The notes below the pieces were generated by a model, which did no database searches, was not told where the DNA came from, and was given only the letters and a program-made list of their open reading frames with translations. Position numbers and translations under genes: made by a program. Shown one piece after another: positions 19,361 to 54,821 of a DNA stretch of 64,000 nt; within the stretch, counting starts at the first letter, position 1; every line of letters starts with the position of its first letter. Source of the DNA: TM7 phylum sp. oral taxon 348 (GTDB taxonomy: Bacteria > Patescibacteriota > Saccharimonadia > Saccharimonadales > Saccharimonadaceae); assembly GCA_007845485.1 (NCBI GenBank), contig SDRW01000001.1:62001-126000 (forward strand), read 5' to 3'.

Positions 19361-21877
19361 TTATTTTATAGATCCATTAAGTTTCACTGATATAGCTTTA
19401 TTTATATTTTCTATAATGCGAGATGCATCGGTAGCTGTTAAAGTACGATTATAGTTTGTCATACTAATATTTAAAGTAATAGTCTTAAATGAACTATCCT
19501 TTGCTCTATATATATCAACGAGCCTAATGGATATAAATTCATCATCTTGCTTTTGTAAACTATTTTTAACAACATTTAGCACATCTTTATATGAGACAGC
19601 CGAATCAATTTCTATAGAAATATCTCGCCTCGTCGAGGGAAATTTACTGAGCGGATGATATGAATCACCTATATTTTTACTCATATTTTTCTGTAATATA
19701 TCGATATCTATCGAAGCTGCAGATATATACTGTGGTAACTTGAAATTTTTAATAACCGACTGCTTAAGCTCTCCCACTAATCCTACAATATCACCGTTAT
19801 CTATTATAATTAATGAACTTCTATCTATATCAAATGGAGCTAAAATTTGTTTATCAATTTGATTAACTATTTTTTCAAATTCAAACTTTACGCCAAGGTC
19901 CTTTCCTAAATTATCAATTATTTTTTTAGCTACATAAAACGGCGCACCTGGCTTATCTTTTTTAGATGTATAGACAAGATCTATATAATTATTCTCAATT
20001 GGTAAACCCTCTTTATTTAATCCCTTGGATTTAAGATGACCTTTACCTATCTCAAATAGTGCAAATTCATTATGTCCAGATTTGATATTAGTATAAACTT
20101 TATCTAATAAGCTTGGTAGCACAGTTAAGCGATAATATTGCAAGTCAGGACTGAGAGCATTGGATAGTTTATATGCCTGGATAACGTCTTGTTCGGCGTT
20201 CTTTAAAATGCGCTCGTGAACAAAACTATAAGTCAAAATTTCATTGGCGCCAGCGCGGCTCAAACTTTGGCGAATGGCATTCTTCAGTTCGTGGCGCAGA
20301 TTTTTCGGTGCTGGCTTAATACTGCGATGCGGCAACTCACGCGGTAGTTTGTCAAAACCATATAACCTACCAACTTCCTCGACGATGTCTTCTGACAACT
20401 CCAGGTCGGTGCGCCAGAATGGCGACTGAATGCAGATATAATCTAGTTCTTCTTCTGGACCGTGGCTTTTGATTTCCACGTTATTTAACAAGCCGCAAAT
20501 ATCGTTTTCGCTTAATTTCAAGCCTAATCTTTCATTGATGAATTTACTATCAATATCAATGTTGGCTGGCGTGTATTTTCCATCAAAATAATCGTCAAAT
20601 TCGTCGCTGAATTGTTTCAGGTCAAATACCTCGCTCGCCTGCACCCCGCCAACCATACTCATCAACAGTTTCAAAACGGCGGCATTTTGTAGCGGCGACT
20701 GACCCTTGTTGAATCGTGCCAGTGCATCGGTAAAGACGCCGTGGCGCATAGCAGTTTTGCGCAGCGCGTACATATCAAACGTCGCACATTCCAGGACGAT
20801 ATTTTTCGTGTCGTTCGAGACCTCGGTATTGCTGCCGCCCATAATTCCCGCCAGGCCGATTACACCTTCGCCATCAGCAATGATAATATCATCCGCCGTC
20901 AATTCGTATTCTTTGCCGTTTAGTAAAATAACTTTTTCACCAGACCGAGCCAGCCGCGCGCCCAGCTGATGCCCGCGCAATTTGTCATAATCATAGGCGT
21001 GCGTCGGTTGCGCCGTCATCAGCATGATGTAATTTGTGGCGTCAACGATGTTGTTGATCGGCTTGCCCCCCATCGCCACCAGCTGGCATTGCAGCCACAG
21101 CGGACTAGGCTTAACCTCGACATCCTTGATCGCTACCGCCATAAAGCGCGGCACTAATTCTGGCGCGCCATTCGTTACCATCAGATCCAAACCTTCGGCC
21201 GTGCTAAATTGCTGCTGCGCTTTGTACCACTCCGGACTGGTAAATTGCTGCCCAAAAATCCCAGCAATCTCGCGCGCCACGCCCAATTGTCCGAAGCAAT
21301 CTGGCCGGTGCGTAAACATCTTGTTCTCGATATCCAGCACGAAATCATCCAAACCAAACGTTTCCGCAAAACTGGCGCCTGCCCGCAGCTCCGCGCCGCT
21401 CGGCAGATCATTTTCAGTAATTTCAATAATTCCTTTATGATCCGTACCAATCGCCAGCTCGTCCGCCGCCGCCAGCATACCTTGGCTCAATACGCCACGC
21501 AAAGGTCGCGCACCCAGAACAAACGGCTCAGTATCATCAAAACTTACTGGCACCGTGCTGCCAGGCGGCAGCCAAATCGCCCACATATCCGCATGCACAT
21601 TCGGCGCGCCGCAGACCACTTGTACATAGCCGTTGTCATCGCGCGATACGTCTGGCACCGCACCGCCATCATCAATCTTGGTAACACTCAAGCGATCGGC
21701 ATCCGGATGCTTGCCGCACTCAACAACACGCACAATCCGCACACTGGAATATTTGACACCGAGATCAATCACCTCCTCAACCCCGCCCAGCTGCTGGTTG
21801 ACTCGCGACACCAATTCATCCACCGATGGTAATTCAAAATTAATCAAACTTCTTACAATATTAAGACTTACTTTCAT
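19361..21877 (-). CDS. pheT: Phenylalanyl-tRNA synthetase beta subunit, base-composition mosaic
   Basis: 838 aa. N-terminal tRNA-binding (EMAP/OB) domain (IVRVVECGKHPDADRLSV, VQVVCGAPNV), then the B3/4 editing domain, B5 domain, catalytic-like core and the C-terminal anticodon-binding FDX-ACB domain (FPSTRRDISIEI). It pairs with PheS to charge tRNA-Phe. The coding sequence changes composition near 20230: 21361-21420 has 36 G/C of 60, while 19861-19920 has 16 of 60, yet the frame is intact. So about 550 N-terminal residues are encoded by GC-richer DNA and about 290 C-terminal residues by backbone-like DNA. pheS is 6.7 kb upstream rather than adjacent. Confidence 0.97.
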   Translation of the reverse strand: MKVSLNIVRSLINFELPSVDELVSRVNQQLGGVEEVIDLGVKYSSVRIVRVVECGKHPDADRLSVTKIDDGGAVPDVSRDDNGYVQVVCGAPNVHADMWAIWLPPGSTVPVSFDDTEPFVLGARPLRGVLSQGMLAAADELAIGTDHKGIIEITENDLPSGAELRAGASFAETFGLDDFVLDIENKMFTHRPDCFGQLGVAREIAGIFGQQFTSPEWYKAQQQFSTAEGLDLMVTNGAPELVPRFMAVAIKDVEVKPSPLWLQCQLVAMGGKPINNIVDATNYIMLMTAQPTHAYDYDKLRGHQLGARLARSGEKVILLNGKEYELTADDIIIADGEGVIGLAGIMGGSNTEVSNDTKNIVLECATFDMYALRKTAMRHGVFTDALARFNKGQSPLQNAAVLKLLMSMVGGVQASEVFDLKQFSDEFDDYFDGKYTPANIDIDSKFINERLGLKLSENDICGLLNNVEIKSHGPEEELDYICIQSPFWRTDLELSEDIVEEVGRLYGFDKLPRELPHRSIKPAPKNLRHELKNAIRQSLSRAGANEILTYSFVHERILKNAEQDVIQAYKLSNALSPDLQYYRLTVLPSLLDKVYTNIKSGHNEFALFEIGKGHLKSKGLNKEGLPIENNYIDLVYTSKKDKPGAPFYVAKKIIDNLGKDLGVKFEFEKIVNQIDKQILAPFDIDRSSLIIIDNGDIVGLVGELKQSVIKNFKLPQYISAASIDIDILQKNMSKNIGDSYHPLSKFPSTRRDISIEIDSAVSYKDVLNVVKNSLQKQDDEFISIRLVDIYRAKDSSFKTITLNISMTNYNRTLTATDASRIIENINKAISVKLNGSIK

Positions 21878-21899
21878 ACTACTTACTAGTATAACATCC

Positions 21900-23237
21900 T
21901 TATAACAGCTTACTAAAAATTATTTTATTGAATACGCCAACTATCCCATTCCAAATATCACCAAAAAACCCAAGCACGCCGCCAACAAAATCACTTACAA
22001 CCTGTCCGATAGCGTTAAAGATACCGCCAAACCAACTGACAGCAGCACTCCAAGCGGATTTTATAGCCTCCCACGCTTTGCCGAATATATTGAACTTTAC
22101 CTGTAAAAACACCAGTACTCCAACCACCGCTGCTATAGCAGCAACAATCAAAAGCATTGGATTTTTACCAGTTACTAAATTAAATGCTTCCATGGCCGTT
22201 TTTCCGCCACGAATAGCACTCGCAAATTGAATCATACTAGCAGCGAACGACCCCACTTTCATAGCCACTAGGGCAACGCCAGCAGCGGTTACTGCTGGTA
22301 CGAAATTGTTTATAACTATATCCGCAACCTTCTGGATCTTATCCTTATTCTCTTCCAGCCAATTTGTAGCATCCTCAACGGCTTTGCTAATTTTATCGAA
22401 CACGCCGCCAGCTTTGACTTGCCCAGTCGCTGCATCCACGCCCACGATTTTCATGCCCACATTGGTGATTGTTTCCAGCAAGTTACTCATGTGTCCGTTG
22501 AATGTTCGGGATTGCTTAATCGCGCCCTGAAAAGCCATACCACCCTCAGCACTCGCCATCTGGAGTGCCTTGCGTAGCACATCAGCTGTTACTTTGCCCT
22601 TTGATAGGTCGTCGCCGAACGTCTTGATAGAATGTCCCGCACCCATCGCTGCGATGATGTATTTTTTGAATCCACCAGCACCCTGGTTGATGATCTGATA
22701 CCAATCCTGCGTCATCATCTTGCCAGTACCGATTGCCTGCGTGATTGGCAGCGCCAAACCCTGCAAATCCGCGCCAGTTGCCCCAGCCAAGTCGCCCAAG
22801 TTTCGCATCCAGCCCATCAAATCCTGTACCGCCACGCCGTTTGCTAGGAACATTTTGGCGGTTGCCTGGATGGATTTATTGTCAAAGGCTATTTCTTTGC
22901 CGTATTGGTACAGTGTTTTCATGACGACATTTGTCGCCTCTACTGTTCCAGTTAGCGATTCAAATGACGATCGCAGAGACTGCAACTCAGAGGCGCTTTT
23001 CACGAACGACATCAATCCAAAGCTACCACCCACTGCCACCGCAGCAACGCGCTTCAGTGTCGATTCGATAAACCCGCCCGCTTGACTAAAAGCATCCTTT
23101 AAATTAGCAGCATTGCCGACTAGTTTCTTGCCCACATTGCTGCTAAAATTTTTAACGCTCGCCTGAGCGGTCTTCAAGGCAGTCTGCAGGGCTAATACGT
23201 TTGCCCGGATTGTTAGAGTGAGTGTGCTGTTATTCAT
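21900..23237 (-). CDS. Truncated phage tail tape measure protein
   Basis: 445 aa. The N-terminal ~300 residues match the tape-measure N-terminal domain: QTALKTAQASVKNF opening, then LQSLRSSFESLTGTVEAT, GLALPITQAIGTGKMMTQD and INQGAGGFKKYI. Two hydrophobic stretches (about 310-340 and 355-440) and Trp/Phe/Gly-rich repeats follow, ending in FNKIIFSKLL. Tape measures are normally far longer, so the C-terminal part has been lost, and the stop lies 23 nt from the pheT start in AT-rich junction-like DNA. Tape measures set tail length and can enter the host envelope. It follows the tail assembly chaperone, as in siphophage tail modules, apart from the inserted plus-strand genes. Confidence 0.85.
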   Translation of the reverse strand: MNNSTLTLTIRANVLALQTALKTAQASVKNFSSNVGKKLVGNAANLKDAFSQAGGFIESTLKRVAAVAVGGSFGLMSFVKSASELQSLRSSFESLTGTVEATNVVMKTLYQYGKEIAFDNKSIQATAKMFLANGVAVQDLMGWMRNLGDLAGATGADLQGLALPITQAIGTGKMMTQDWYQIINQGAGGFKKYIIAAMGAGHSIKTFGDDLSKGKVTADVLRKALQMASAEGGMAFQGAIKQSRTFNGHMSNLLETITNVGMKIVGVDAATGQVKAGGVFDKISKAVEDATNWLEENKDKIQKVADIVINNFVPAVTAAGVALVAMKVGSFAASMIQFASAIRGGKTAMEAFNLVTGKNPMLLIVAAIAAVVGVLVFLQVKFNIFGKAWEAIKSAWSAAVSWFGGIFNAIGQVVSDFVGGVLGFFGDIWNGIVGVFNKIIFSKLL

Positions 23238-23272
23238 CTTCCGCCTTCTTTTTTCTAGCGGACGAAAAACAA

Positions 23273-23299
23273 CAAAAAAATGCGGCTCAAAGTCCGCAT
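23273..23299 (-). terminator. Intrinsic terminator/attenuator upstream of the tape measure gene
   Basis: Read on the minus strand: ATGCGG, 8-nt loop, CCGCAT, then a run of seven T. It lies between the palindromic promoter at 23311-23333 and the tape measure ATG (23237), so it would stop most minus-strand transcription before that gene. Confidence 0.75.
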
Positions 23300-23310
23300 A
23301 TATTACCCAT

Positions 23311-23333
23311 ATTATATCACATCGTGATATAAT
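23311..23333. promoter_or_regulatory. Perfect palindrome carrying a TATAAT on each strand
   Basis: ATTATATCAC-ATC-GTGATATAAT: 10-bp perfect arms around a 3-nt centre. The right arm gives TATAAT for the plus-strand gene pair (ATG 23364, with AAGGAAAGG as ribosome site). The left arm gives TATAAT for the minus strand towards the tape measure gene. The symmetry also suits an operator for a dimeric repressor covering both -10 boxes. Confidence 0.6.
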
Positions 23334-23363
23334 CCCTCCATAAGGAAAGGAAAATAAACTAAC

Positions 23364-23756
23364 ATGTTTAATCTCTTCAAGAAAAAAGAAAAACTGCCGC
23401 TATGTGCCAGCGGCGAATATAACGGGACATACAATCCTATCAAAGACAGCGTTTTGTCAGCTGAATTATTATTTGATCACGATAGTGTTACCTTTTTGTT
23501 TGATAAGGGTGTTAAAAAAGATGTCATACGGCGCTTTGATTGGTCAGAGGTAGAGGGCTTTGATTTTAATTCAAAAAAGGAAGACAAAACTGTTGTTTTC
23601 CGTACAATATTGTACTTGAAGGACGGGCAAATCACTTTGGTTAAACCAATTGAAGAAAGCAATGTTCAATATGGCATTATCACCACACTAGAACCTCATT
23701 ATAAGAAAATACGCCAGTTTGTCGCTGGCAAATTAAATTCGGAGTCCTCCAAATGA
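23364..23756 (+). CDS. Small soluble protein, possibly PH-like fold, first gene of an inserted pair
   Basis: 130 aa with no transmembrane segment. It begins MFNLFKKKEKLPL (basic, amphipathic), followed by alternating hydrophobic/polar strands (DSVTFLFDKGVKKDVIRRFDW, TVVFRTILYLKDGQ) and one C-terminal helix, a pattern seen in bacterial PH-like domains. This is a visual impression only. Its stop overlaps the next start (ATGA, 23753-23756), so it is coupled to the Excalibur protein. The pair is oriented against the surrounding phage genes and has its own promoter, like a moron. Confidence 0.75.
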   Translation: MFNLFKKKEKLPLCASGEYNGTYNPIKDSVLSAELLFDHDSVTFLFDKGVKKDVIRRFDWSEVEGFDFNSKKEDKTVVFRTILYLKDGQITLVKPIEESNVQYGIITTLEPHYKKIRQFVAGKLNSESSK

Positions 23757-24721
23757 GCCTGTCCCTCCGCCGCAAAAAATCCGCTGAATCCAACAAAACC
23801 GACAAGACCAAACCATCTGCCAAAAGCTTCAAACAAATCTACCAAGAAAGTAAGAATAGACCGCTTACCAAAAACGAAAAGCGAGGCTGGGCTATTTTTG
23901 GCGGCATCATCATAGCTATTCTCATCATTACTCACATTAGCAATGTGATGGAGCAGTCTCGCCTCGAAAAAGACAATGTTTCAATCGTTATCTCTGATAT
24001 AGAGGACAATATCAAGCTCGATTACCACACCGACAAGCGTGAGATATCCGCCAAAATATCGGGTGTTAGCTCATTTGCCGAGGTAAAAATATCAGGCGAC
24101 AAAACCGATATCCACGACCGCAAAGACGCAGCTGGCAATATCAAATACGAAGTTAAAAATATTAAAGAGGGAGACAGCGATATTACTATATCTGCTGTTG
24201 ACGGCAAACGCCACAGTAATAAAACGGTTAAGTTTCACCGCCAAACAAAAGCCGACTACAATAAGCAAGAGCTCGAAAAATCTCTCAAGTATACCGAGGA
24301 AGTAGTCAAAAAGGCTGAAGAGCAACCCACCGACGAAAACATCTCTCGTGCCAAATCAGACATCAATAAACTACCAGAGGATAAGCGTGCCCCATTCTCT
24401 GAACGTATCACTAAATTAGAAAAAGCCAAGCAAGAAGAAAAAGAGCGAGACGAACAGGCGAAGAAAGCCGCCGAGGAGAAGAAAAAACAAGAGGAAGCCG
24501 CTGCTGCTAGCGCTCGCCAACAGCAGGCGCACTCATCACAACCAACAGCCATACCTCGCCAGACTACACCCGCACCACAACCCGCTCCAGCAGAATTGAA
24601 CTTTGGCAGTTGCAAAGAAGCGCGTGCCGCTGGCTACAGCCATATGCGCCGAGGCGAACCCGGGTACGCACCGCACCTTGATAGAGACGGCGACGGTATC
24701 GCCTGCGACAAACACAGATAA
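23753..24721 (+). CDS. Membrane-anchored protein with C-terminal Excalibur calcium-binding-type domain
   Basis: 322 aa. A basic N-terminus (residues 1-42) is followed by one transmembrane helix (about 43-65, GWAIFGGIIIAILIITHI), a beta-rich region, and a long Lys/Glu-rich coiled coil with an Ala/Gln/Pro-rich linker (about 170-280). The C-terminal Excalibur module (about 285-322) has CKEARAAG, GYAPHLDRDGDGIAC with the DxDxDG loop and two Cys. Excalibur domains occur on secreted or surface proteins, sometimes with nucleases, and resemble EF-hand calcium loops. No catalytic domain is visible. It ends 19 nt before the stop of the minus-strand frameshift product. Confidence 0.88.
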   Translation: MSLSLRRKKSAESNKTDKTKPSAKSFKQIYQESKNRPLTKNEKRGWAIFGGIIIAILIITHISNVMEQSRLEKDNVSIVISDIEDNIKLDYHTDKREISAKISGVSSFAEVKISGDKTDIHDRKDAAGNIKYEVKNIKEGDSDITISAVDGKRHSNKTVKFHRQTKADYNKQELEKSLKYTEEVVKKAEEQPTDENISRAKSDINKLPEDKRAPFSERITKLEKAKQEEKERDEQAKKAAEEKKKQEEAAAASARQQQAHSSQPTAIPRQTTPAPQPAPAELNFGSCKEARAAGYSHMRRGEPGYAPHLDRDGDGIACDKHR

Positions 24722-24740
24722 AAGTAAAAGCAAGGGCAGC

Positions 24741-25297
24741 TTACTGCTGTCCCACCTTATCAATCTGCTCCTTTTCGACCACCGCCTCAACTTGGCGCCG
24801 CACTAGGATAGCCGCAGTAAACTCTTCCGGCTGATCCATATACTCATCGTACGTCCAGCCATACTCCTTGCAGATAAGTGCAATTTGGATCATCTGCGGC
24901 ACTTCGCCAGAACCATTGCGCAGAGCGCGGTCGTACTTAATCGACCACGCCTCTATTCTTTTGGGAGCTCCCTCTCTTTGCCGAACACTTCCATAACCTT
25001 ATTGCTGATAGTCTCGTAGTCGTCGCCAAATTCGCTGTCCATCAGTGCTTCAAATGGCTGTTCACGGTTGCCGCAATATTCCAGCAATAACTTCTCAATT
25101 AACTTATCACTCGCTCCCATAACTCTGCTCAAATCGACATCTACCTCGCCATCGCTGGCTTCCATTTCCTTGGTAGACATAGTTTGACCCTCGAGCATTA
25201 GCCGTCGATACATACTTCTGTCGCGATTGCGAATAAAACCGCGGATAACGGCACTACGTCCATCATTCAGTTCAATTGTCACTTCTCGATTACTCAT
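24741..25297 (-). CDS. Phage tail assembly chaperone, short (114 aa) and -1 frameshifted long (185 aa) forms
   Basis: The zero-frame product runs 25297-24953 (114 aa, ends ELPKE). A slippery heptamer C-CCA-AAA occurs in frame just before its stop. A -1 slip continues as ...LPKRIEAWSIKYDRALRNG... for 72 more codons to TAA at 24741-24743, giving 185 aa. The layout (tail protein, chaperone with -1 frameshift extension, tape measure) is the conserved order of siphophage tail modules (lambda G/GT). The extension frame has no other start near its beginning. AGGAG precedes the ATG. Both forms look intact although the flanking phage genes are truncated. Confidence 0.88.
24959..24965 (-). other. Programmed -1 ribosomal frameshift site CCCAAAA
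   Basis: On the minus strand the heptamer fits X-XXY-YYZ with zero-frame codons CCA AAA. Re-pairing one base back allows CCC AAA. The zero-frame stop TAG comes two codons later, and the -1 frame is open for 72 codons. Confidence 0.85.
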
Positions 25298-25312
25298 TTA
25301 TCTACTCCTAGT

Positions 25313-25450
25313 TTAGTATTCATATTTATTAACCAATTCAGCTTCAATAGTCTTACTGTCTGTAATGTTTAGCAAGCCCTCAAAGTTGATAGTCTCAGTT
25401 GAAATATCGCTCAGTCCGTAGCTTGGTTCACGACTGGAAATCGCCACCTT
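25313..25450 (-). pseudogene. 3' fragment of a phage major tail (tube) protein gene
   Basis: A frame ending at TAA (25313-25315) encodes VAISSREPSYGLSDIS, then a Glu/Leu-rich C-terminus (INFEGLLNITDSKTIEAEL...) and lies 15 nt before the chaperone start, where siphophages carry the major tail protein. Upstream of about 25450 the sequence abruptly becomes A/T-rich and the translated N-terminus (MTHKDHSIIIIYFLQ) looks non-coding, so the 5' part is missing. Assignment rests on position and style, not on a motif. Confidence 0.5.
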
Positions 25451-25492
25451 GCTTAAACTATAGGATTGTAAAAAATAAATTATTATTATAGA

Positions 25493-26578
25493 ATGGTCTT
25501 TGTGAGTCAAGTCATCGTACTCCTAAGTGAAATCTTAGGATATGCAAGTCCATTGTTCACGCCGCTAATCACTGCGATTAGCCTTATCCTAGGTCCGACG
25601 TTGCATCCAGAAATTGTTGCAGCACAAGACCAACTAAAATCGCCGTCAGAAATTGAAAAATTGAGTTACGACGATGCAATTGCCAGGGTCAATGATATTA
25701 TTGCCGAAGAGAATTCAACGAACGACATTCGTCCTGAGTGTCACTCGATTATGAAGGATCACGGCAAAAAAACAGACAAGGCAGTAGTTCTTATCCACGG
25801 AGTAAGTGGTTGTCCAGCTCACTTCGCTGAGTTGGCTAACAAATTTTACAACGAAGGATATAATGTTTTCATTCCCCGAATGCCGAAACATGGTCTTACT
25901 GACAATAATCGGCACGGAGAGGTAACGCTGGCAGAACTTGCAAGTTTTGCCGAGCAGACTACTTCAATCCTTAGTGGATTGGGTGAAGAAGCAGGTGTTG
26001 CTGGATCTTCTGGAGGTAGTAGTGTTGCAACATGGATTGCTCAATACGGCAAGGGTACTGTTAAAAAACTTCTCTTGCTCGAGCCCTTCTATGCAACCTA
26101 TGATAAATTCCAAAATACCTTAGTGAAAAAGGTATATGGATGGAATCTCCTCCCAGATATTTTAATTAATGGCAACCTGTCACTTCGCGCCCTTGGTAAA
26201 TATCTGTTGCTTGTGGATTCTTACAAGCCTGATATGTACGCTCCTGGTGTCGAATCCATCAGTGTCATCCTCAGTGAGGGAGATACAGGAATTGATCACA
26301 GTGAAGCTGCCAATATCTCAAAGAAGATGGCAGACTCATCGGGAGCAGAATATCAGTATGTCGAGTTGCCAAAGTCTATGGGACTTAAGCACGGCATTAT
26401 TAACCCAGGCGACCCGCTAGTAATTCCGCACAAGGAAAAGCTTTATGATATGTATTATAAAGCTTATACTGGCGAAAAAGTTTCGGCGTTAGCTGAATCT
26501 AACACAATTGAAGACACAGAAACAGAGGAAGAGCAACCTTCACAGCTTTCTGAATTGTCTCTTGTGCTAGAACAGTAA
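25493..26578 (+). CDS. Exported or membrane-attached alpha/beta hydrolase
   Basis: 361 aa. A hydrophobic N-terminus (about residues 1-38) could be a signal or anchor. The hydrolase core has VVLIHGVSGCPAHF (oxyanion HG motif), FIPRMPKHGLTD, and nucleophile elbow GVAGSSGGSS with Ser. The late LKHGIINP supplies a plausible catalytic His. The last ~30 residues are acidic and Gln-rich. Similar proteins are esterases or lipases; for an epibiont it could act on host or diet lipids (inference). The gene starts in an A/T-rich junction just past the tail fragment, with TATTAT 6 nt before the ATG, and ends in a clear terminator. Its composition differs from both flanks, which suggests separate acquisition. 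Confidence 0.85.
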   Translation: MVFVSQVIVLLSEILGYASPLFTPLITAISLILGPTLHPEIVAAQDQLKSPSEIEKLSYDDAIARVNDIIAEENSTNDIRPECHSIMKDHGKKTDKAVVLIHGVSGCPAHFAELANKFYNEGYNVFIPRMPKHGLTDNNRHGEVTLAELASFAEQTTSILSGLGEEAGVAGSSGGSSVATWIAQYGKGTVKKLLLLEPFYATYDKFQNTLVKKVYGWNLLPDILINGNLSLRALGKYLLLVDSYKPDMYAPGVESISVILSEGDTGIDHSEAANISKKMADSSGAEYQYVELPKSMGLKHGIINPGDPLVIPHKEKLYDMYYKAYTGEKVSALAESNTIEDTETEEEQPSQLSELSLVLEQ

Positions 26579-26592
26579 ATAGTCGGATCTAC

Positions 26593-26627
26593 AGGCTGAT
26601 TATCTTCTTAGGTAATCAGCCTTTTCA
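26593..26627 (+). terminator. Intrinsic terminator of the alpha/beta hydrolase gene
   Basis: Stem AGGCTGATTA / TAATCAGCCT (10 bp perfect) with loop TCTTCTTAGG, followed by TTT. It sits 15 nt after the hydrolase stop and just before the end of the convergent HIT gene. Confidence 0.88.
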
Positions 26628-26634
26628 ATTTACA

Positions 26635-27099
26635 CTAAATATTGCCCTGTATATTAATTATTTTTTTCTGAATTTCATCCAGCTGAGCATCATCCATTTT
26701 TGGGCCATCGGCAGTCGTCAACCAACCTGGATATTCTTCGTAAAACGCCTGTTCATGAGACACTGGCGAACCAATTCCTTTTGCTAAATCACCGTGCAGC
26801 GGCACCAGCTTGGCATGCACATGCGCCACGCCCGTCCCTTCAAAAATTAATGCTACTCGCGGCGCGTCAAATGCTTTTTCCAAAATATTCGCAACCTTTT
26901 TGACTGCCAACATCATCTCAGAATATAGCTCATCATCCAAGGAAAATACGTAATCGCCCGGATTTTCTTTGGGAATCACCACCGTAAAGCCTGGCGTGTT
27001 GGGAAACGGCGTTAAAAATGCTAAAAATTTCTCGTCCTCCCAGACTTTCCATGACTTCATTTTGCCTGATACGATATCGTCGAAAATTGTGTGGTTCAT
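26635..27099 (-). CDS. HIT-family nucleotide hydrolase with changed third histidine
   Basis: 154 aa. Conserved FLAFLTPFPNTPGFTVVIPK and the active-site region GVAHVHAKLVPLHG. In classical HIT proteins the motif is HxHxHxx; here the first two His (the second being the usual nucleophile) are kept and the third is Lys. HIT enzymes hydrolyse dinucleoside polyphosphates or AMP conjugates. It sits 9 nt after the flavoprotein gene on the same strand, inside the GC-richer block, so the two are probably co-transcribed. Confidence 0.9.
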   Translation of the reverse strand: MNHTIFDDIVSGKMKSWKVWEDEKFLAFLTPFPNTPGFTVVIPKENPGDYVFSLDDELYSEMMLAVKKVANILEKAFDAPRVALIFEGTGVAHVHAKLVPLHGDLAKGIGSPVSHEQAFYEEYPGWLTTADGPKMDDAQLDEIQKKIINIQGNI

Positions 27100-27108
27100 A
27101 CTCCTCCT

Positions 27109-28431
27109 TTACGCAAATAAATCGTTCAATGCCTCACTCACCGTTGGATGAGTGAATATTTGGTCACGCAGTACAGTATACGGCAGGTCATTATCCATTA
27201 CGGTTTTGATAATATTAATGACTTCTGGTGAGTTACGACACAATAAACTAGCACCCAAAATTTGTTCAGTGTTTGCATCAATCACCGCACGCAGCAAGCC
27301 TGTTGTAGCATTATCAACATGTAGGCGTGGAATCGCCATAGCGGGCAGCTCTTTTATGATAATTTCGCGCCCCGTCGCACGCGCCTCAGCCTCTGTCATA
27401 CCCACCCGACCTAGCGGCGTTTGCATAAAGACCGCGTACGGCAAGGTTTTTTGTTTGGCGCGAGTGTACAGACCATCGCCCAGCAACTGGCTTCTCACAA
27501 TCCGAAAATCATCCAGCGACGCATAGGTAAATTGTGGCCCGCCCGTTACATCGCCCATTGCCCAAATATGCGACCGGCTAGTGCGAAGTGTTTCATCAAC
27601 CACAATTGCCCCACGCTCATCCGTCGCTACACCAGCAGCTGGTAAATTCAAGCTCATCGTCGCCGGGCGACGGCCCGTAGCCATCAACACCGCATCATAA
27701 CCAGTGTAATCATCATGATTTACTGTGCGAATCGTTGCAGTAGACTCACCCTCAATCGCTGTCACATCCACGCTAAACACAATCTCTATACCCTGCGCCT
27801 GCAGCGCTTCAGTAGCAGCCTGAGCAATTGTTGGATCTTCACGCGTAAGCAAGGAATCACCCCGCTCAAACACTGTTACTTTTGTACCAAGTTTGGCATA
27901 AGTTGAGGCGAATTCTAACCCAATATAACCGCCACCAATGATAGCTAGCTGTTTTGGCTGCGTCATTTTATCCAGCAATTCAGTACTGGTATATACAAAC
28001 GGCTTATCAACACCTGGAATATCTGGGATGATTGATTCCGCACCGGTGTTAATAAAAATCTGCGGTGCACTCACTACTAGCTCGTCGCCACCCGCCACAA
28101 CCTTCACAGTACGATCATCTACAAACGATGCCTCACCCTCAATGACACTCACCGTTTCACGATCCGCGAGCATGTGATAGTTCTTCTCATTCAACCGCGT
28201 CACTACCGTTGTCTTATGCGCCATCGCCTCATCAAAACTTTGATGATGTTCGGCCGCACTGACCAGCACCTTAGTAGGAATACAAGCAATATTAATACAG
28301 GTGCCGCCATACATCTTTGGCGACCGCTCCACCAGCGCTACCTTTTTGCCCGCATTTGCCAGCGCTACCGCCAATGTCTTGCCAGCTTTACCAAAACCAA
28401 TAATAAGTGCGTCAAATTGTTGTGTATCCAT
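27109..28431 (-). CDS. rclA: RclA/Har-like flavoprotein disulfide reductase (hypothiocyanous-acid reductase candidate)
   Basis: 440 aa class I pyridine nucleotide-disulfide oxidoreductase. N-terminal ALIIGFGKAGKTLAVALA and MYGGTCINIACIPTK (redox Cys45/Cys50) match E. coli RclA closely by memory, including the unusual GFGKAGKTLA dinucleotide-binding loop. NAD(P)H motif IGGGYIGLEFA and C-terminal FTHPTVSEALNDLF with the catalytic His are present. RclA and the pneumococcal Har reduce hypothiocyanous acid, an oxidant made by lactoperoxidase in saliva, which would suit an oral organism. Mercuric reductase is unlikely: no N-terminal HMA domain and no terminal Cys pair. AGGAGGAGG ribosome site. Confidence 0.82.
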   Translation of the reverse strand: MDTQQFDALIIGFGKAGKTLAVALANAGKKVALVERSPKMYGGTCINIACIPTKVLVSAAEHHQSFDEAMAHKTTVVTRLNEKNYHMLADRETVSVIEGEASFVDDRTVKVVAGGDELVVSAPQIFINTGAESIIPDIPGVDKPFVYTSTELLDKMTQPKQLAIIGGGYIGLEFASTYAKLGTKVTVFERGDSLLTREDPTIAQAATEALQAQGIEIVFSVDVTAIEGESTATIRTVNHDDYTGYDAVLMATGRRPATMSLNLPAAGVATDERGAIVVDETLRTSRSHIWAMGDVTGGPQFTYASLDDFRIVRSQLLGDGLYTRAKQKTLPYAVFMQTPLGRVGMTEAEARATGREIIIKELPAMAIPRLHVDNATTGLLRAVIDANTEQILGASLLCRNSPEVINIIKTVMDNDLPYTVLRDQIFTHPTVSEALNDLFA

Positions 28432-28512
28432 TTACCTCCTCCTATCTTTTTTAGCGATCTCTCTCGCTGTAACAATTTCTCTATCGGCATACAGAACTGC
28501 TTCTTTTATCAC
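28432..28512 (-). CDS. Possible 26-codon leader ORF fused end-to-start with the flavoprotein gene
   Basis: A GTG-initiated frame (VIKEAVLYADREIV...) ends in TAA directly abutting the flavoprotein ATG and contains that gene's AGGAGGAGG. The same frame is open all the way back to the pheS stop, about 40 codons in total. It has protein-like composition (Ala/Glu/Arg-rich helix), but no clear ribosome site of its own. Confidence 0.3.
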   Translation of the reverse strand: MIKEAVLYADREIVTAREIAKKDRRR

Positions 28513-28554
28513 AAGTTTTTGAGATACTACTATTATCGTGTGCGCAATAGCTCC

Positions 28555-29598
28555 TTAAAACTGCTCCAAAAAATCCAATCGTCCGCTCTCAAAATGCCGC
28601 ACGTCCTCGATGCCGTATTTCATCATCACCAAGCGGTCGATGCCACAGCCAAAGGCAAAGCCGGTATATTCGTTCGGATCGATATCAGCGGCTTCCAACA
28701 CTTTCGGGTGAATCATGCCGCAGCCCAAAAGCTCAATCCAGCCTTCGCCAGAGCAAACTTTGCAGTCTGGATTCTTGCCTTCACAAAATGGGCAGCTCAG
28801 CGCAAATTCAAAGCTCGGCTCAGTGAACGGGAAATAAAATGGATTGACGCGCACGTACAATTTTTTGCCATAATATTCTTGCAAAAACTCCTGCAAGGTG
28901 GCGATCAGATTGCCGACGTTGACGCCCTTGGCGACATACACGCCCTCGACTTGATAGAACGTGTGCTCGTGCCGCGCATCCAGGTCTTCGTTGCGAAACA
29001 CCCGGTCGGGTACAATAGCCGCTATCGCCTCACCTTTTGCCAGGTTGTCGCGGTATTTGACCAAAACGCGGTTCTGCATCGTCGATGTGTGCGCTGGTGC
29101 AATCAACCGATCGCCGTCCTTGTCGGTCTCGACGGTCATAAATGTATCGTAATCATCGCGCGCCGGGTGGCCTTTTGGAAAATTCAAGCTTTCAAACATA
29201 TGGAATTGATCGTCAATCTCGCGCGATTCTTCCATCACAAAGCCCATGCGATTGAAAATATCAGAAATGCGATCAATCTCGCGGCTCAACGGATGAATCG
29301 TACCGCGATCGCTTGGTAGTAGCTCAGGCTGCGGCGCGTTAATATCCATCGGCGCCGTGATGTCGATTGGTGGCAAACTAACCGTATTTAAAACTTCCTC
29401 ACGTTCCAAAATAGCTTTTTCAATCTCTTGTTTTATTCCGTTAATTTTCTGACCAAAACTAGAGCGCTCTTCCACTGGCAATGTTTTAATCAAGCCATAT
29501 AGTCCCCTCAATTCTTTTGAACGTAGGACCTCACGAGGACTATCAGAGTCATAGACTTTATCTAGTAATATTTTCCTTACTTTCTCAATACTCTCCAT
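28555..29598 (-). CDS. pheS: Phenylalanyl-tRNA synthetase alpha subunit, base-composition mosaic
   Basis: 347 aa. N-terminal coiled coil (about 1-90), then the class II catalytic core: HPLSREIDRISDIFNRMGF, FPKGHPARDDYDTF (motif 2 region), NEDLDARHEHTFYQ, Cys-rich CPFCEGKNPDCKVC, and motif 3 FGCGIDRLVMMKYG. It partners PheT. The first ~70 codons are AT-rich like the backbone and the rest is GC-richer, with the switch near 29390. pheT lies downstream on the same strand after 6.7 kb of cargo. Only the small membrane-protein gene at 29609 precedes it. Confidence 0.97.
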   Translation of the reverse strand: MESIEKVRKILLDKVYDSDSPREVLRSKELRGLYGLIKTLPVEERSSFGQKINGIKQEIEKAILEREEVLNTVSLPPIDITAPMDINAPQPELLPSDRGTIHPLSREIDRISDIFNRMGFVMEESREIDDQFHMFESLNFPKGHPARDDYDTFMTVETDKDGDRLIAPAHTSTMQNRVLVKYRDNLAKGEAIAAIVPDRVFRNEDLDARHEHTFYQVEGVYVAKGVNVGNLIATLQEFLQEYYGKKLYVRVNPFYFPFTEPSFEFALSCPFCEGKNPDCKVCSGEGWIELLGCGMIHPKVLEAADIDPNEYTGFAFGCGIDRLVMMKYGIEDVRHFESGRLDFLEQF

Positions 29599-40532: not shown

Positions 40533-43352
40533 TTATTTCACAACAATATTTAAAATTTTATCTGGTATATAAACATTTTTTATATTTTGCTTACCTTTGA
40601 TAAAGCTCATTACATGGCCATTAGCAAAGGCCATAGTCTCCACTTCATCTTTAGACAATCCTCGATTACACTCCAAACGGGCACGAACTTTACCGTTAAC
40701 CTGTATTATAATAGTAGTTTGGTCAGATTTTAATAGATCATCATTCCAAGAAGGCCAATTATCAATATGAATTGTTGACTTATGACCAATCTGATACCAA
40801 AGCTCTTCTGTAATATGTGGCGCAAATGGCGCAAGAACCATTAGTAAATTCTCCAAGGCAATTCTCCAAGGTTCTGATTTGGTAATACAATAATTTTCTT
40901 TTATTTTATATAAATTGTTTACAGTTTCCATCATAAAAGAGACAGCCGTATTAAACTTTTCATCACGAATATCCTCAGTTACTTTTTTCGCTACCAAGTT
41001 GGCTATGCGTAGAATTTCAGTGTCATATTTAGGATTGCTCCTCTCGGTATCACTAGAGTCAATATACTCCTGGACCAAATTCCAAATACGATTTAAGAAC
41101 CTATAAGAACCTGGCACGCCACGAGTATCCCACGGTGCATCCATGTCATACGGCGCGATAAACATTTCGTAGACTCTGAGTGCGTCGGCGCCATAGCCGC
41201 TGTCCATAATTTCCATTGGATCGATGACATTACCTTTGGACTTAGACATCTTTTGACCGTCGGGCGCCATGATGTAGGCGTTGTACATCATCCGCTTAAA
41301 CGGCTCGGGCGTTGGTACTAAGCCAAGTTTGTAGAAAAAGCGCATCCAAAAACGGCTATATAGCAAGTGCGCCACCGCGTGATCCGCCCCGTTGTAATAG
41401 TCGACCGGCATCCAGTGGTTAATTCGCTCTGGATCCCACGCCTGCTTGTCATTATGCGGGTCCAGATAGCGCAGGAAATACCAACTAGAGCAAGCATAGC
41501 CATCCAATGTATCAGTTTCGCGCCTACCTTTAACCCAATTATTACCTTCTGGTTTCGGATCGGTAATCGGCACTGTCTTACTTGTCTCAACGTCAACCCA
41601 CACGCGCACCCAATCGTCAACCTGCGCCAGAACGGACGTGTTTCCGCCAGTCGGTTTGAAATCCTCAACCTCTGGCAAAACCACTGGCAAACACTCGTCT
41701 GCCACGGCAATCGGCGCTCGCCCATCAACATGAACAATCGGAATAGGCGCACCCCAGTAGCGCTGGCGAGAAATCAGCCAGTCGCGCATCTTGTATGTCG
41801 TTTTACTCTGTCCAGCACCTTGCTGTTCTAGCCATGCCACAATTTGCTCGCGAGCATCTTCGCTGCGCGTGCCATCAAATTGGCCAGAATTAATCAACTC
41901 GCCTTCACCAGTATAGCAGCCAATGTCCGCCGAATTTTCTGGCTTATCAACCACTTGGATAATTGGCAGGTCAAACTTTTCAGCAAAGGCAAAATCACGC
42001 TCATCATGCGCTGGTACCGCCATAACCGCGCCCGTGCCATAGCTACCCAATACATAATCAGCTACCCAAATTGGAAGTTTTTTTCCGTTAACTGGATTAA
42101 TTGCATAGCTACCAGTAAATACACCTGTCTTTTCTTTATTTTCTTGACGTTCAATATCTGTCTTCTGCTGAGAGCCTTTAATATATTCCTCTATTTTTTC
42201 GCGAGTATAATTATTTAATAATTTTGGAACTAATTTATGCTCAGGCGCTAGAGCTAAATAGGTTGCGCCAAATAATGTATCAGGGCGAGTCGTAAAAACC
42301 TTAATCGGTGGTAAATACTCAAAATCATAAACCGTAAAAATATCATCCAACGAAACTTCTTCGCCATAGAATTTCCTAAAACTCAACAATTTTTCATTAT
42401 CATCGCTATAATGCTCATGTCCAGAAGCATCATTAGGTATATCTCTTAGTGGGAGCTGGCGGATATTAGCTATTTTTATATATCCAAATGAAGATACTTT
42501 CTCTCCATCACGTACCATAGCATCAGCAATATCACCAATCTTAAGTTTTTTAGCTTCATACCTAATTGTATTAGTTTTTTTACCAGAAATAATTTTTTCT
42601 GCCAGATCGGGGGTGAATTTCAGAGAGTCAGATGCTATTAAATCGAGAGTAAAATTAACCTCAGCGCCAACAGAACGACCAATCCAATTCTTCTGCATAG
42701 TTTTGACCATTTCTGTCCAATCAAGATCATCAGTTGCATCTAAGATCTCGTCTGCATATGCCGTTATACGGAAGAACCATTGCTTTAAATTTTTCTTAGT
42801 AACTGGATTACCACAACGCCAACATTTTCCACCCTCAACTTGCTCATTTGCTAAAACAGTATTATCTGTTTCACACCACCATTGCGGCTGTTCTTTCTGA
42901 TATGCTAAATCATGTTTATATAATTGTGTAAAAATCCATTGCGTCCATTTATAATACTCAGGATCAGCTGTTGAAATTTCTTTCGTCCAATCATAGCTAA
43001 ATCCAAGGCGCTTCAACTGCTCTTTGAAATGGATCTTAGCCTCATCATGTGCAACTCTAGGAGTTTTTCCAACTTTAATAGCGTAATTCTCCACTGGCAA
43101 ACCAAAACTATCCCAACCAATCGGATGATAAGCATTATAACCCTGTTGACGTTTAGCTCGAACTTTTATATCTGAAAATTGATAAGTCCTACCGTGCCCA
43201 ATATGAATACCAGCACCAGTAATACCAGGCAACATACTAAAACTATAATATTTTTTACGGGAATCATCATTTAAATCAACTTTATAAGTTTCATTTTCAT
43301 CCCATATTTGTCGCCATTTTTTCTCTACTTCAATAGGGTTGTAACGCTTCAT
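40533..43352 (-). CDS. leuS: Leucyl-tRNA synthetase with an inserted ASCH-like domain
   Basis: 939 aa. HIGH-class motif HIGHG (residues 50-54); zinc-type Cys cluster C160, C177, C180; CP1 editing domain with threonine-rich TTRPDTLFG (from about 354); and KMSKSKGNVIDP in the catalytic core, then the anticodon-binding helices. Between GAEVNFTLD and PPIKVFTTRP, where normal LeuRS has a few residues, about 110 extra residues are inserted (about 238-347). The middle of the gene (41110-42060) is much richer in G/C than both sides (41581-41640: 36/60; 42541-42600: 12/60) with the frame intact. Confidence 0.97.
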   Translation of the reverse strand: MKRYNPIEVEKKWRQIWDENETYKVDLNDDSRKKYYSFSMLPGITGAGIHIGHGRTYQFSDIKVRAKRQQGYNAYHPIGWDSFGLPVENYAIKVGKTPRVAHDEAKIHFKEQLKRLGFSYDWTKEISTADPEYYKWTQWIFTQLYKHDLAYQKEQPQWWCETDNTVLANEQVEGGKCWRCGNPVTKKNLKQWFFRITAYADEILDATDDLDWTEMVKTMQKNWIGRSVGAEVNFTLDLIASDSLKFTPDLAEKIISGKKTNTIRYEAKKLKIGDIADAMVRDGEKVSSFGYIKIANIRQLPLRDIPNDASGHEHYSDDNEKLLSFRKFYGEEVSLDDIFTVYDFEYLPPIKVFTTRPDTLFGATYLALAPEHKLVPKLLNNYTREKIEEYIKGSQQKTDIERQENKEKTGVFTGSYAINPVNGKKLPIWVADYVLGSYGTGAVMAVPAHDERDFAFAEKFDLPIIQVVDKPENSADIGCYTGEGELINSGQFDGTRSEDAREQIVAWLEQQGAGQSKTTYKMRDWLISRQRYWGAPIPIVHVDGRAPIAVADECLPVVLPEVEDFKPTGGNTSVLAQVDDWVRVWVDVETSKTVPITDPKPEGNNWVKGRRETDTLDGYACSSWYFLRYLDPHNDKQAWDPERINHWMPVDYYNGADHAVAHLLYSRFWMRFFYKLGLVPTPEPFKRMMYNAYIMAPDGQKMSKSKGNVIDPMEIMDSGYGADALRVYEMFIAPYDMDAPWDTRGVPGSYRFLNRIWNLVQEYIDSSDTERSNPKYDTEILRIANLVAKKVTEDIRDEKFNTAVSFMMETVNNLYKIKENYCITKSEPWRIALENLLMVLAPFAPHITEELWYQIGHKSTIHIDNWPSWNDDLLKSDQTTIIIQVNGKVRARLECNRGLSKDEVETMAFANGHVMSFIKGKQNIKNVYIPDKILNIVVK
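41110..42060. other. GC-rich tract inside leuS
   Basis: A roughly 950-bp internal segment of leuS has G/C content about double that of the flanks on short hand counts (36/60 versus 12/60). The frame continues through both borders, as expected for a homologous recombination tract from a related donor. Confidence 0.65.
42312..42641 (-). other. ASCH-like domain insertion in LeuRS
   Basis: Encodes residues about 238-347: LKFTPDLAEKIISGKKTNTI, RYEAKKLKIGD, YIKIANIRQLPLRDI, then LLSFRKFYG and DIFTVYDFEYL. The order 'F-x-LAEKIL-x-GKKT-x-TIR', 'L-x-x-GD', a strand plus 'v-x-x-l-x-LRDI', and a final 'v-x-DF-x-YL' follows the ASCH fold, a PUA-related RNA-binding domain. It lies outside the GC-rich tract, so it is part of the backbone allele. 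Confidence 0.68.
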
Positions 43353-46997: not shown

Positions 46998-47483
46998 CTA
47001 TAAATCCTCTGCAATTAACTCACTATCTTTACGATAAGACCGCAGTATTTTTAACGACATGCGCGCAATTGGTCCAGCGACCAATATTTGCCACCAAAAC
47101 GCCGCGCAGAAATTCACTGGCCATACCGAGGCAAAGCGCAGCGGTAACTCAAACAGCGGCGTGCCCACCAGCATCAGCCCGATCAAACTCATCGCCAGCG
47201 ACATACCCGTCACCATGCACACTGTTCGCGCCAGTGCATGGGCTTCTGTGCTGTCTTTCGCCTGGACAAAACGCTTCATAGTTTTTTGCGCCAGATTCGA
47301 TACGAGCAAACCCTCGACAACCATGACGATTGCGAAAATCACTGGCTGCAGCAGTAGCGCTTTCTTCAGTGACGACATCGATGCGCCAGCGTGCAAAAAC
47401 GTATTCAGCAAATTCATAAAAATTGACATAGTAAACACCATGACAACGCCATAAAATATTCCTTCTCGCTTGGTGCGGGGCAT
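46998..47483 (-). CDS. DUF2798-family membrane protein
   Basis: 161 aa with four transmembrane segments: about 12-30, 42-65, 92-115 and 122-145. The N-terminal REGIFYGVVMVFTMSIFMN and the pattern with a second half starting ARTVCMVTGMSLAMSLIG match the duplicated DUF2798 layout. Function of the family is unknown. A consensus-like promoter and a leader with a terminator-type hairpin precede it, suggesting conditional expression. Confidence 0.8.
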   Translation of the reverse strand: MPRTKREGIFYGVVMVFTMSIFMNLLNTFLHAGASMSSLKKALLLQPVIFAIVMVVEGLLVSNLAQKTMKRFVQAKDSTEAHALARTVCMVTGMSLAMSLIGLMLVGTPLFELPLRFASVWPVNFCAAFWWQILVAGPIARMSLKILRSYRKDSELIAEDL

Positions 47484-47514
47484 ATTTCCTCCTTTGGTTA
47501 ATTATTTTTTGGCA

Positions 47515-47604
47515 ATAAAAAAGTTGCGCGTTATCGGTGCAACTAGGGTGTTTTATCTTTACAACATTACGCTCCCGCTCAGGGTAAAAGCAACGTATTG
47601 ACCT
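47515..47604 (-). ncRNA. Leader RNA with terminator and competing GTTGC copy (attenuator candidate)
   Basis: Downstream of a strong promoter, the minus strand contains TACG...CGTA around CCC-TGAGC-GGG, then AGTTGC ... GCAACT followed by TTTTTT (47544-47517), a clear intrinsic terminator before the DUF2798 gene. A second GTTGC (47594-47590) could pair with the same GCAAC, as in antitermination. Not assigned to a known riboswitch class. Confidence 0.55.
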
Positions 47605-47610
47605 CTGAAA

Positions 47611-47639
47611 ATCTTAGCAGGGCGGCGGGTTTTTGTCAA
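47611..47639 (-). promoter_or_regulatory. Consensus-like promoter for the DUF2798 leader
   Basis: TTGACA (47639-47634), 17-nt spacer, TAAGAT (47616-47611). The -35 is perfect and the spacing ideal. It sits about 120 nt upstream of the DUF2798 ATG. Confidence 0.8.
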
Positions 47640-47841
47640 GGATTCGCCTAGTGCTATTTAGACGATTTTTGCGATATCTTTACAAGAACAGAGTACGCTA
47701 TTTGATGTATAATTAGAATGTGATTAAAGAAGCTATAATAAAAAAGATTACATTACTGTATAAGTTTAAGTTCGGCAAATAAAATCATCTTGTTAAATGA
47801 TATAAAATATAAAGACTTAGTTAAATAGGAGAATTAAACCA

Positions 47842-48369
47842 ATGTCTCAAACATCACACTCAAATTCAGCTTTACAATTATATAAATTCTGCCCAAAATG
47901 CGGCGGTAAATTTGTTCATCGCGGCGGCAATCATCTGAAATGCCAATCCTGTGATTATAGCTATTTTGTCAATCAGGCGCCGACTGCTGGAGTAATTATT
48001 TTTAATAGCGAGGGCAAGGTGATGATGGCTAAGCGAAAGTTTGAGCCGAAAAAAGGAACATGGCAGTCAATCGGCGGATTTGTCGGATTAGATGAATCTT
48101 TGGAAGAAGCCGCTGTGCGCGAGGCTAAAGAGGAACTTGGCGTGAATATAGAAATAGATAATTATCTAGGCAGCTTTCCTGAGACTTATGAGTTTGGCGG
48201 AGTTGCTGTACCGTTTTTAGCAATTTACTTTACTGCAAAGATTATCGATGGAAATCCGAAACCAAATGATGACGTAGCGGAAATCGGCTATTTTACGCGC
48301 GACGATCTGCAAAAATTAGATATTACGTATCCTGCGCTGCGTGAATTATTGCTTGCAAAAATGTCTTAA
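47842..48369 (+). CDS. Nudix hydrolase with N-terminal zinc ribbon
   Basis: 175 aa. Zinc ribbon CPKCGGKFVHRGG...CQSCDY (residues about 19-43) is followed by the Nudix domain with box GFVGLDESLEEAAVREAKEELGV. This arrangement resembles NudC-type NADH/NAD-RNA pyrophosphatases and related 'zinc-ribbon Nudix' proteins. The NudC SQPWPFPxS motif is not evident, so substrate is open. Ribosome site AGGAG 12 nt upstream. The 200 nt before it (47640-47841) are A/T-rich with several TATAAT-like boxes but no other feature. Confidence 0.88.
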   Translation: MSQTSHSNSALQLYKFCPKCGGKFVHRGGNHLKCQSCDYSYFVNQAPTAGVIIFNSEGKVMMAKRKFEPKKGTWQSIGGFVGLDESLEEAAVREAKEELGVNIEIDNYLGSFPETYEFGGVAVPFLAIYFTAKIIDGNPKPNDDVAEIGYFTRDDLQKLDITYPALRELLLAKMS

Positions 48370-48464
48370 GCTCAAAGCGAAAGTAACATATTAACCCATA
48401 GATAATTTAATAAATAGAATAAAATTTCGTCAAATATGCGTAACTTATTAGCTCGTTAGATAGT

Positions 48465-48499
48465 GGGGCGGAAAAGTTCTGTAATTACTTTTCCGCCCC
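48465..48499. other. Strong 13-bp hairpin
   Basis: GGGGCGGAAAAGT / ACTTTTCCGCCCC with a 9-nt loop. It sits between the convergent Nudix gene and the 34-aa peptide gene. There is no T-run on either strand, so it may block 3' exonucleases or act as a factor-dependent end. Confidence 0.7.
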
Positions 48500-48520
48500 T
48501 TAGACAATGACAGTTAGCCG

Positions 48521-48625
48521 TTAATCGTCATTACCGCCATCATTGTCGAATCCGGAGCCCTCAGGACCGTTATCCTGCTCATTAGCAGCCCCGTCGTCCC
48601 AGTCCCAGCCGTCGTAGGAAGACAT
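48521..48625 (-). CDS. 34-residue acidic Asp/Gly/Trp peptide
   Basis: Begins MSSYDGWDWDDGAANEQDNG and ends FDNDGGNDD. The ribosome site AAGGAGGTGAATT before the ATG is an almost perfect anti-Shine-Dalgarno complement, which supports real translation. A hairpin with a GCGA (GNRA) loop lies just upstream. No lysine or arginine, and nine or ten Asp: strikingly acidic and Gly-rich, with two Trp in a YDGWDWDDG core. It follows a metallopeptidase gene on the same strand (63 nt) and could be its partner, a precursor peptide or a metal-binding peptide. No family recognised. Confidence 0.65.
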   Translation of the reverse strand: MSSYDGWDWDDGAANEQDNGPEGSGFDNDGGNDD

Positions 48626-48688
48626 AATTCACCTCCTTCCTAAGGCTATCGCTAGCCTAGATATAATAGGTTAGCAAGTGGACAATTA

Positions 48689-49660
48689 TTAATTTAGCAT
48701 ATATATATGCAGTTCGTCAACTACTTTAATCGCTGACTCGAATATAGCAGCATCAATCAATTTTCCCTCTTCAATATAATCGGTCAGTTTTGGTAACATA
48801 TGCAAACTTGCCCAATTGATAATCTGATTTGACGTTGGTTTTCGCTTGGCAAGTAATCTCTCAAACGATGGACGCATATCATTAACAGTTGAACGAGGCT
48901 TTCCAGTAAGTTGAGGACTTAAGTATCCTCCACCAATTGTACGGCTAGCAATACAATAAGCTAAAAGCTCGTTATATACCGAGCGCCACGTATAGCCAGG
49001 CGGAGACACAAGTTTTTTTGGAAGGATAAACTTCTCGTACGAAGATCTACCCGCTTCTTGAAATAATTTTGATTGCTGAATTAGTCCATGCGCATACTCG
49101 TGAAGTATGACGATTCTGACAGCCTCTTTTTTCTGGTCATTAAATGAATAATGTGGTCGTAGGAGTATAAAGTTGCTACTACTGATTTTATGTCCAGCAG
49201 GGCCACTTGCTTCTGGGCGTGGCGGTAACAGAAATACAGTACTATCCTGTACAGCCTGCCTATCCAACCCCAGAAAAACAGCTATTTTTTGCAACTGTGG
49301 ATACAGATCATTATATGAAAAATCATTTATAGCATTACGCCACATAACAAGGTTCTCATGACAATCTTGCCAAATACTATCAAATCTATCCATAAGAGGA
49401 GCAGAAATATGAGCAATTAAACGGAGGTTTTTGTTATCAAATTTTTCACTATATAGCTTTCGCAAAATATCATAAGGATTAGAGTCTGACTGTATAATAG
49501 CGCGCACTTGCGACAGAATAGGCTCGTCGGCGGGTTGAATGACATGGCGGTAATACGTAAATAATGGATACTCAAACGCATATGACTTATCCCATTTAGA
49601 CACCGTCTGTAGCCAGTAAAAGAACGCTACATTTTTATTAAGAGTTGCCACTATATTCAT
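48689..49660 (-). CDS. Zincin-type metallopeptidase-like protein
   Basis: 323 aa, no signal peptide apparent. VILHEYAHGL (about residues 188-197) gives an HExxH zinc motif, and the downstream YNELLAYCIASR has a Glu in a position that could be the third ligand (gluzincin style). The N-terminal half is helical with many aromatics. TAAAAT lies exactly 7 nt before the ATG, so the transcript is probably leaderless. It precedes the 34-residue acidic peptide gene and lies just downstream of a structured RNA with terminator. Family not recognised beyond the zincin motif. Confidence 0.75.
   Translation of the reverse strand: MNIVATLNKNVAFFYWLQTVSKWDKSYAFEYPLFTYYRHVIQPADEPILSQVRAIIQSDSNPYDILRKLYSEKFDNKNLRLIAHISAPLMDRFDSIWQDCHENLVMWRNAINDFSYNDLYPQLQKIAVFLGLDRQAVQDSTVFLLPPRPEASGPAGHKISSSNFILLRPHYSFNDQKKEAVRIVILHEYAHGLIQQSKLFQEAGRSSYEKFILPKKLVSPPGYTWRSVYNELLAYCIASRTIGGGYLSPQLTGKPRSTVNDMRPSFERLLAKRKPTSNQIINWASLHMLPKLTDYIEEGKLIDAAIFESAIKVVDELHIYMLN

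Positions 49661-51668: not shown

Positions 51669-54821
<3,153 letters not shown>

Follow-up and report, generated by a model that had tools for sequence, protein, structure and literature searches.

Integrase-free hotspots have an established model in double recombination at the core genes that flank them (PMC5635113). Hotspots of the Oliveira type (2017, PMC5635113) have core-gene anchors and diverse cargo with turnover, lack an integrase and show exchange in their flanking core genes. The locus described here resembles them in each of these respects and lies in an organism group known to be transformable. Those hotspots were described among strains within species, whereas the present case lies between Saccharibacteria species and genera seen in metagenome assemblies, and, unlike in that description, its breakpoints are mapped inside two synthetase genes. 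It adds a new and well-mapped case to a known class of hotspot; in the literature searched, of which coverage was partial, we found no report of one for this phylum.

Saccharibacteria are naturally competent, and deletion of comEC abolished detectable transformation (Wang et al. 2023, PMC10633639). That work demonstrated comEC-dependent uptake of linear DNA, which was integrated by way of homologous arms of about 0.5-1 kb. It was done in the laboratory with designed arms, whereas here a natural outcome is deduced and the arms, of 0.8 and 1.7 kb, would be the GC-rich parts of genes. In groundwater Patescibacteria, the searched passages of PMC12455944 describe horizontal gene transfer events, prophages and genomic islands and propose competence as one route, a likeness to the exchange considered here; those passages contain neither gene-internal aminoacyl-tRNA synthetase mosaics nor a pheS-pheT hotspot.

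The window, by which we mean the whole 64 kb stretch analysed, sits on the 370 kb contig C5 of a Saccharibacteria metagenome bin that totals 890 kb (completeness 96%, contamination 7.7%). From a background of about 36%, GC climbs from ~0.36 to 0.42-0.51 over about 20.2-29.4 kb. The two ends of this block fall within pheT (19361-21877) and pheS (28555-29598), which share the minus strand, are intact with full domain sets and are spaced 6,677 bp apart (21878-28554). We think it probable that the block arose by homologous exchange with a GC-richer relative resembling L038 (OX335598.1), with arms in pheS and pheT, at an integrase-free hotspot that has been used repeatedly. Two further relatives recur below, the congener G001 (JAUMZA010000001.1) and L037 (CAMCBN010000002.1). 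The parts of the locus are:

19361-20175, minus strand: AT-rich 3' end of pheT with GC3 0.20, not part of the proposed import; set off by a change point, with fourfold identity at chance level against every relative compared.
20176-21877, minus strand: 5' part of pheT, GC-rich (GC3 0.55), putative homology arm; L038 nearest at 74% amino acid identity, fourfold identity to L037 43-64%.
21900-23237, minus strand: truncated tape measure protein of a phage tail (PF20155, E 6e-19; PHROG tape measure profile partly covered).
23364-23756, plus strand: hypothetical protein of 130 aa without a family match.
23753-24721, plus strand: protein with a C-terminal Excalibur domain (PF05901, E 3e-14).
24953-25297, minus strand: hypothetical protein of 114 aa without a family match.
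25493-26578, plus strand: alpha/beta hydrolase, by weak Pfam hydrolase matches slightly below cut-offs; 49% amino acid identity to the L038 gene in the same position.
26635-27099, minus strand: HIT-family protein (PF01230), 92% amino acid identity to L038.
27109-28431, minus strand: RclA/MerA-like flavoprotein disulfide reductase (PF07992; best NCBIfam model RclA, sub-cut-off), 97% amino acid identity to L038.
28555-29367, minus strand: 3' part of pheS, GC-rich (GC3 0.62), putative homology arm; set off by a change point, fourfold identity to L037 48-63%.
29368-29598, minus strand: AT-rich 5' end of pheS with GC3 0.30, not part of the proposed import; set off by a change point, its fourfold comparison limited to 11-16 sites.

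Binomial change points in GC3 locate both borders. In pheT the point is at codon 567, window position 20176 (support range 20110-20194), where GC3 falls from 0.55 to 0.20 with a lnL gain of 49.6 (shuffled maximum 9.4); in pheS it is at codon 77, position 29367 (29361-29388), where GC3 rises from 0.30 to 0.62 with a gain of 12.8 (shuffled maximum 10.3). The steps amount to -0.35 in pheT (relatives' mean 0.00; z -6.7, n=41) and +0.32 in pheS (mean 0.06; z +3.7, n=48), and none of the relatives compared, 41 for pheT and 48 for pheS, has steps this strong in these genes. The first-pass annotation, from hand counts, had called the 3' part of pheS and the 5' part of pheT GC-richer with unbroken frames, in a block at 20230-29390; the change points and intact genes bear this out, and both of its ends lie within about 60 bp of a change point.

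A step in composition could also arise without any exchange, if the GC-rich halves were conserved domains that resisted AT drift, and these halves are indeed the better conserved protein parts of pheS and pheT in all relatives. Yet the step is sharp and lies at synonymous sites, and relatives whose proteins are conserved in the same way show it much more weakly or not at all. Well conserved genes outside the block, such as eno and rnc, have GC3 of 0.23-0.24. Fourfold degenerate sites speak in the same sense: identity between the window and L037 is 147/274 (54%) inside the block and 29/129 (22%) outside it (Fisher 2e-9; counts recomputed from rounded percentages). Protein conservation cannot be the cause of this contrast. 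With the nearest relatives also switching, as set out below, we reject a conservation artefact on these synonymous-site tests and consider it barely credible.

Homologous exchange, by contrast, would account for two ages within one gene. Identity to L037 is 43-64% at fourfold sites in the GC-rich parts of pheS and pheT and at chance in pheS codons 1-77, pheT codons 568-838 and rmuC. Because parts of the same genes are compared with the same relative, we regard this as our strongest single result, and the halves of each gene differ in the age of their common ancestry with that relative. Fourfold identity to L038 inside the block is weaker, at 31-49%, and the donor is only roughly placed because the test is clear with L037 and weaker with L038.

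The nearest relative likewise switches, from mostly G001 outside the block to the L038 lineage in most testable GC-rich pieces. Proteins were compared with five genomes, several genes only where the available stretches contain them. Among the genomes compared, G001 is the best match for fkbp, abc, eno, serA, hyp79, aqp, rmuC, hyp159, gltS, mscS, rnc, nudix, nusB, the leuS 3' end, murF and htpX, with near ties for pap2, trmD and KH. L038 is best for the GC-rich pheT part (74 vs 67%), the flavoprotein (97 vs 90%), the HIT protein (92%), a patch in leuS (91% amino acid identity vs 79% for G001) and ligA (85 vs 71%); the GC-rich pheS part gives a tie near 91%. In trees, the window groups with G001 in rmuC (support 100/98) and with L038 in ligA (98/97), where G001 is rejected (p-AU 9e-6). 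An AU test on the joined pheS 3' and pheT 5' parts rejects G001 by a narrow margin (p 0.0475); the tree of the leuS patch prefers L038 (92/87), with an AU test (p 0.118) that does not reject G001. The 77-codon pheS 5' end was too short for trees and was left out.

Separate trees of the gene halves, which the first-pass annotation had proposed as a check, did not divide pheS and pheT neatly into native and imported halves. The AT-rich pheT half does not group with G001 and leans to L038 (55% vs 46% for G001; tree support 85/80). Agreement of both halves on their closest relative had been named as evidence against exchange, and for pheT this is partly what we find, both halves being nearest L038 by protein among the five genomes. 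The pheT border therefore marks a difference in age more than one in lineage.

Similar signals recur elsewhere in the window: the GC3 change points in pheS, pheT, leuS (two) and ligA are all outliers against 15-48 relatives. Two further tracts are delimited as follows.

41036-42050, minus strand: GC-rich patch of leuS, second putative exchange tract, between two change points; 91% amino acid identity to L038, 79% to G001.
51669-53507, minus strand: GC-rich part of ligA, third putative exchange tract, by a change point at 53489-53534, tree and AU test.

The 1.0 kb leuS patch has both ends within the gene; the ligA tract has its mapped border at about 53507 and the other further left. The frequency of GC patches was judged from sampled stretches of contig C5, in one bin. 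Another GC-rich stretch (0.42-0.50) begins about 1 kb beyond the window end (L024 1000-12000; G000 C5:127001-138000); it runs collinear with L038, to which it is 71-82% identical. Within leuS (40533-43352; codons about 238-349), an ASCH domain (PF04266) is inserted beside the LeuRS editing domain; the L036 alignment spans this insert, which is skipped in L038, G001 and L041. Left of the GC-rich ligA block, three genes at 46998-49660 have no match in the relatives' stretches compared and are possibly further cargo.

Could the mosaic be an assembly product, with contigs of co-occurring clade-A Saccharibacteria (L035-L043) joined at conserved stretches of pheS, pheT, leuS and ligA? The bin's 7.7% contamination, several small contigs at 48-55% GC and a contaminant contig, C10, that is clade-A-like (74-85% identical to L035 and L038) would fit such a chimera. 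It would, however, take five or more joins that all keep the reading frame, including two in leuS separated by 1 kb, and the exact runs common to the window and relatives near the borders are just 8-20 nt, although real parental alleles may differ. Moreover, the bin has one copy each of pheS and pheT, C10 has GC3 of 0.62-0.69 whereas the imported parts of core genes have 0.54-0.62, contig C9 has only a distant relationship to clade A, and G001, a separate assembly, has the same kind of pheS mosaic. We judge a chimera improbable. The short bin contigs L139, L140, L142, L143 and L145-L149 (47-55% GC), some with second gene copies such as rarA, are consistent with contamination by other Saccharibacteria. 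Another short contig, L136 (G000 C6:1-6000, GC about 43%), has frames resembling Cas9 (HNH motif) and Cas1 by eye.

The cargo between the two synthetase genes includes a truncated tape measure protein, as might be expected if a prophage or other integrative element had inserted there and its att site had altered the gene ends or it had carried them along. Searches of the window's pheS-pheT interval with Pfam, PHROG and NCBIfam profiles found no integrase or relaxase, and no flanking direct or att-like repeats were found there, so that the integrase and att repeats expected of such an element are both missing from this interval. The GC-rich block extends 0.8 kb into pheS and 1.7 kb into pheT with frames preserved, and the same signal appears in the leuS and ligA patches. 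We therefore reject insertion of a mobile element, which we hold to be very improbable. Of the cargo proteins, the flavoprotein is a predicted relative of RclA (reactive chlorine resistance) and of MerA hypothiocyanous acid reductase; scoring under the curated NCBIfam cut-offs for both (603.7 bits vs 740 for RclA, 539.5 vs 650 for MerA), it is not assigned as a member.

That pheS and pheT share a strand and are parted by phage, hydrolase, HIT and flavoprotein genes, as first described, is confirmed. The accompanying premise, that the two genes usually adjoin and the cargo is an oddity for the organism, does not hold for Saccharibacteria. Among 76 colinear loci, the genes adjoin (<=27 bp) in 28, and 48 have a gap of at least 312 bp, spanning 0.3-9.3 kb (sizes extrapolated from tblastn ends); the gap exceeds 1.5 kb in 10. 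In these loci, gains are rare at the junctions flanking pheS on its far side. Among relatives, 52 cargo families lie between pheS and pheT, with an RclA-like flavoprotein, a HIT protein and an FMN reductase seen repeatedly. In L037, some 17 kb separate pheT from pheS, with typA and rarA in between, and the HIT and alpha/beta hydrolase genes still adjoin pheT. One core gene pair thus flanks diverse accessory genes in 48/76 loci, tested across species; no mobile-element machinery was found in the window's interval, and the flanking core genes carry a homologous recombination signal, with an independent case in G001. We read the pheS-pheT interval as an integrase-free hotspot for cargo that the phylum has exchanged repeatedly.

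G001 has 48% GC across the stretch homologous to the window and identical flanking gene order, and its pheS has a change point at codon 83, almost the same codon as the window's 77. Fourfold identity between G001 and L035 is 70% in pheS 77-347 and 75% in the flavoprotein, and at chance in the pheS 5' part and rmuC. G001 thus carries an independent exchange of its own: it and L035 have recently shared the 3' part of pheS and the flavoprotein. A simple import from G001 was rejected as the whole story for the window: its pheT 5' part is only 69% identical to G001 in nucleotides, and the cargo differs in all but one gene.

We propose a model in which a Saccharibacteria genome low in GC (about 36%) would have taken up DNA of a GC-richer relative near L038, integrated by RecA-type homologous recombination with the conserved pheS 3' and pheT 5' sequences as arms, so that all DNA between them would have been imported too. 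The first-pass annotation had likewise anchored an exchange with a relative in pheS and pheT, and the fourfold ages, the switch in nearest relative and the leuS and ligA patches support that part. Its import of everything in one event finds no support: the flavoprotein has 86% fourfold identity to L038, against about 41% in the neighbouring pheS and pheT parts (p 4e-25). Given a flavoprotein younger than the pheS and pheT halves that surround it, and given the independent exchange in G001, there was probably more than one event rather than a single clean import. The lean of the AT-rich pheT half to L038 suggests an older replacement of pheT, or of pheS-pheT, beneath the newer import. The order may have been an older pheS-pheT replacement, then the GC-rich import, with the flavoprotein moved more recently.

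Natural transformation is the likely entry route, since ComEC is present (score above cut-off), the interval yielded neither an integrase nor flanking repeats, and Saccharibacteria are known to be competent. It is tempting to speculate more widely, and with somewhat less than even confidence, that the pheS-pheT junction may be a long-standing integrase-free exchange port across Saccharibacteria. The conserved pheS 3' and pheT 5' ends would serve as widely shared arms through which even separate genera exchange genes for oxidant defence and other niche functions by transformation, the synthetase ends being replaced repeatedly.

In a broader context, streamlined epibiotic bacteria are often pictured as gene losers. 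This locus suggests that homologous exchange across large distances can renew essential genes as well as accessory cargo. The mapped breakpoints can be tested with strain genomes, and pheS, pheT, leuS and ligA may mislead phylogenies of the phylum.
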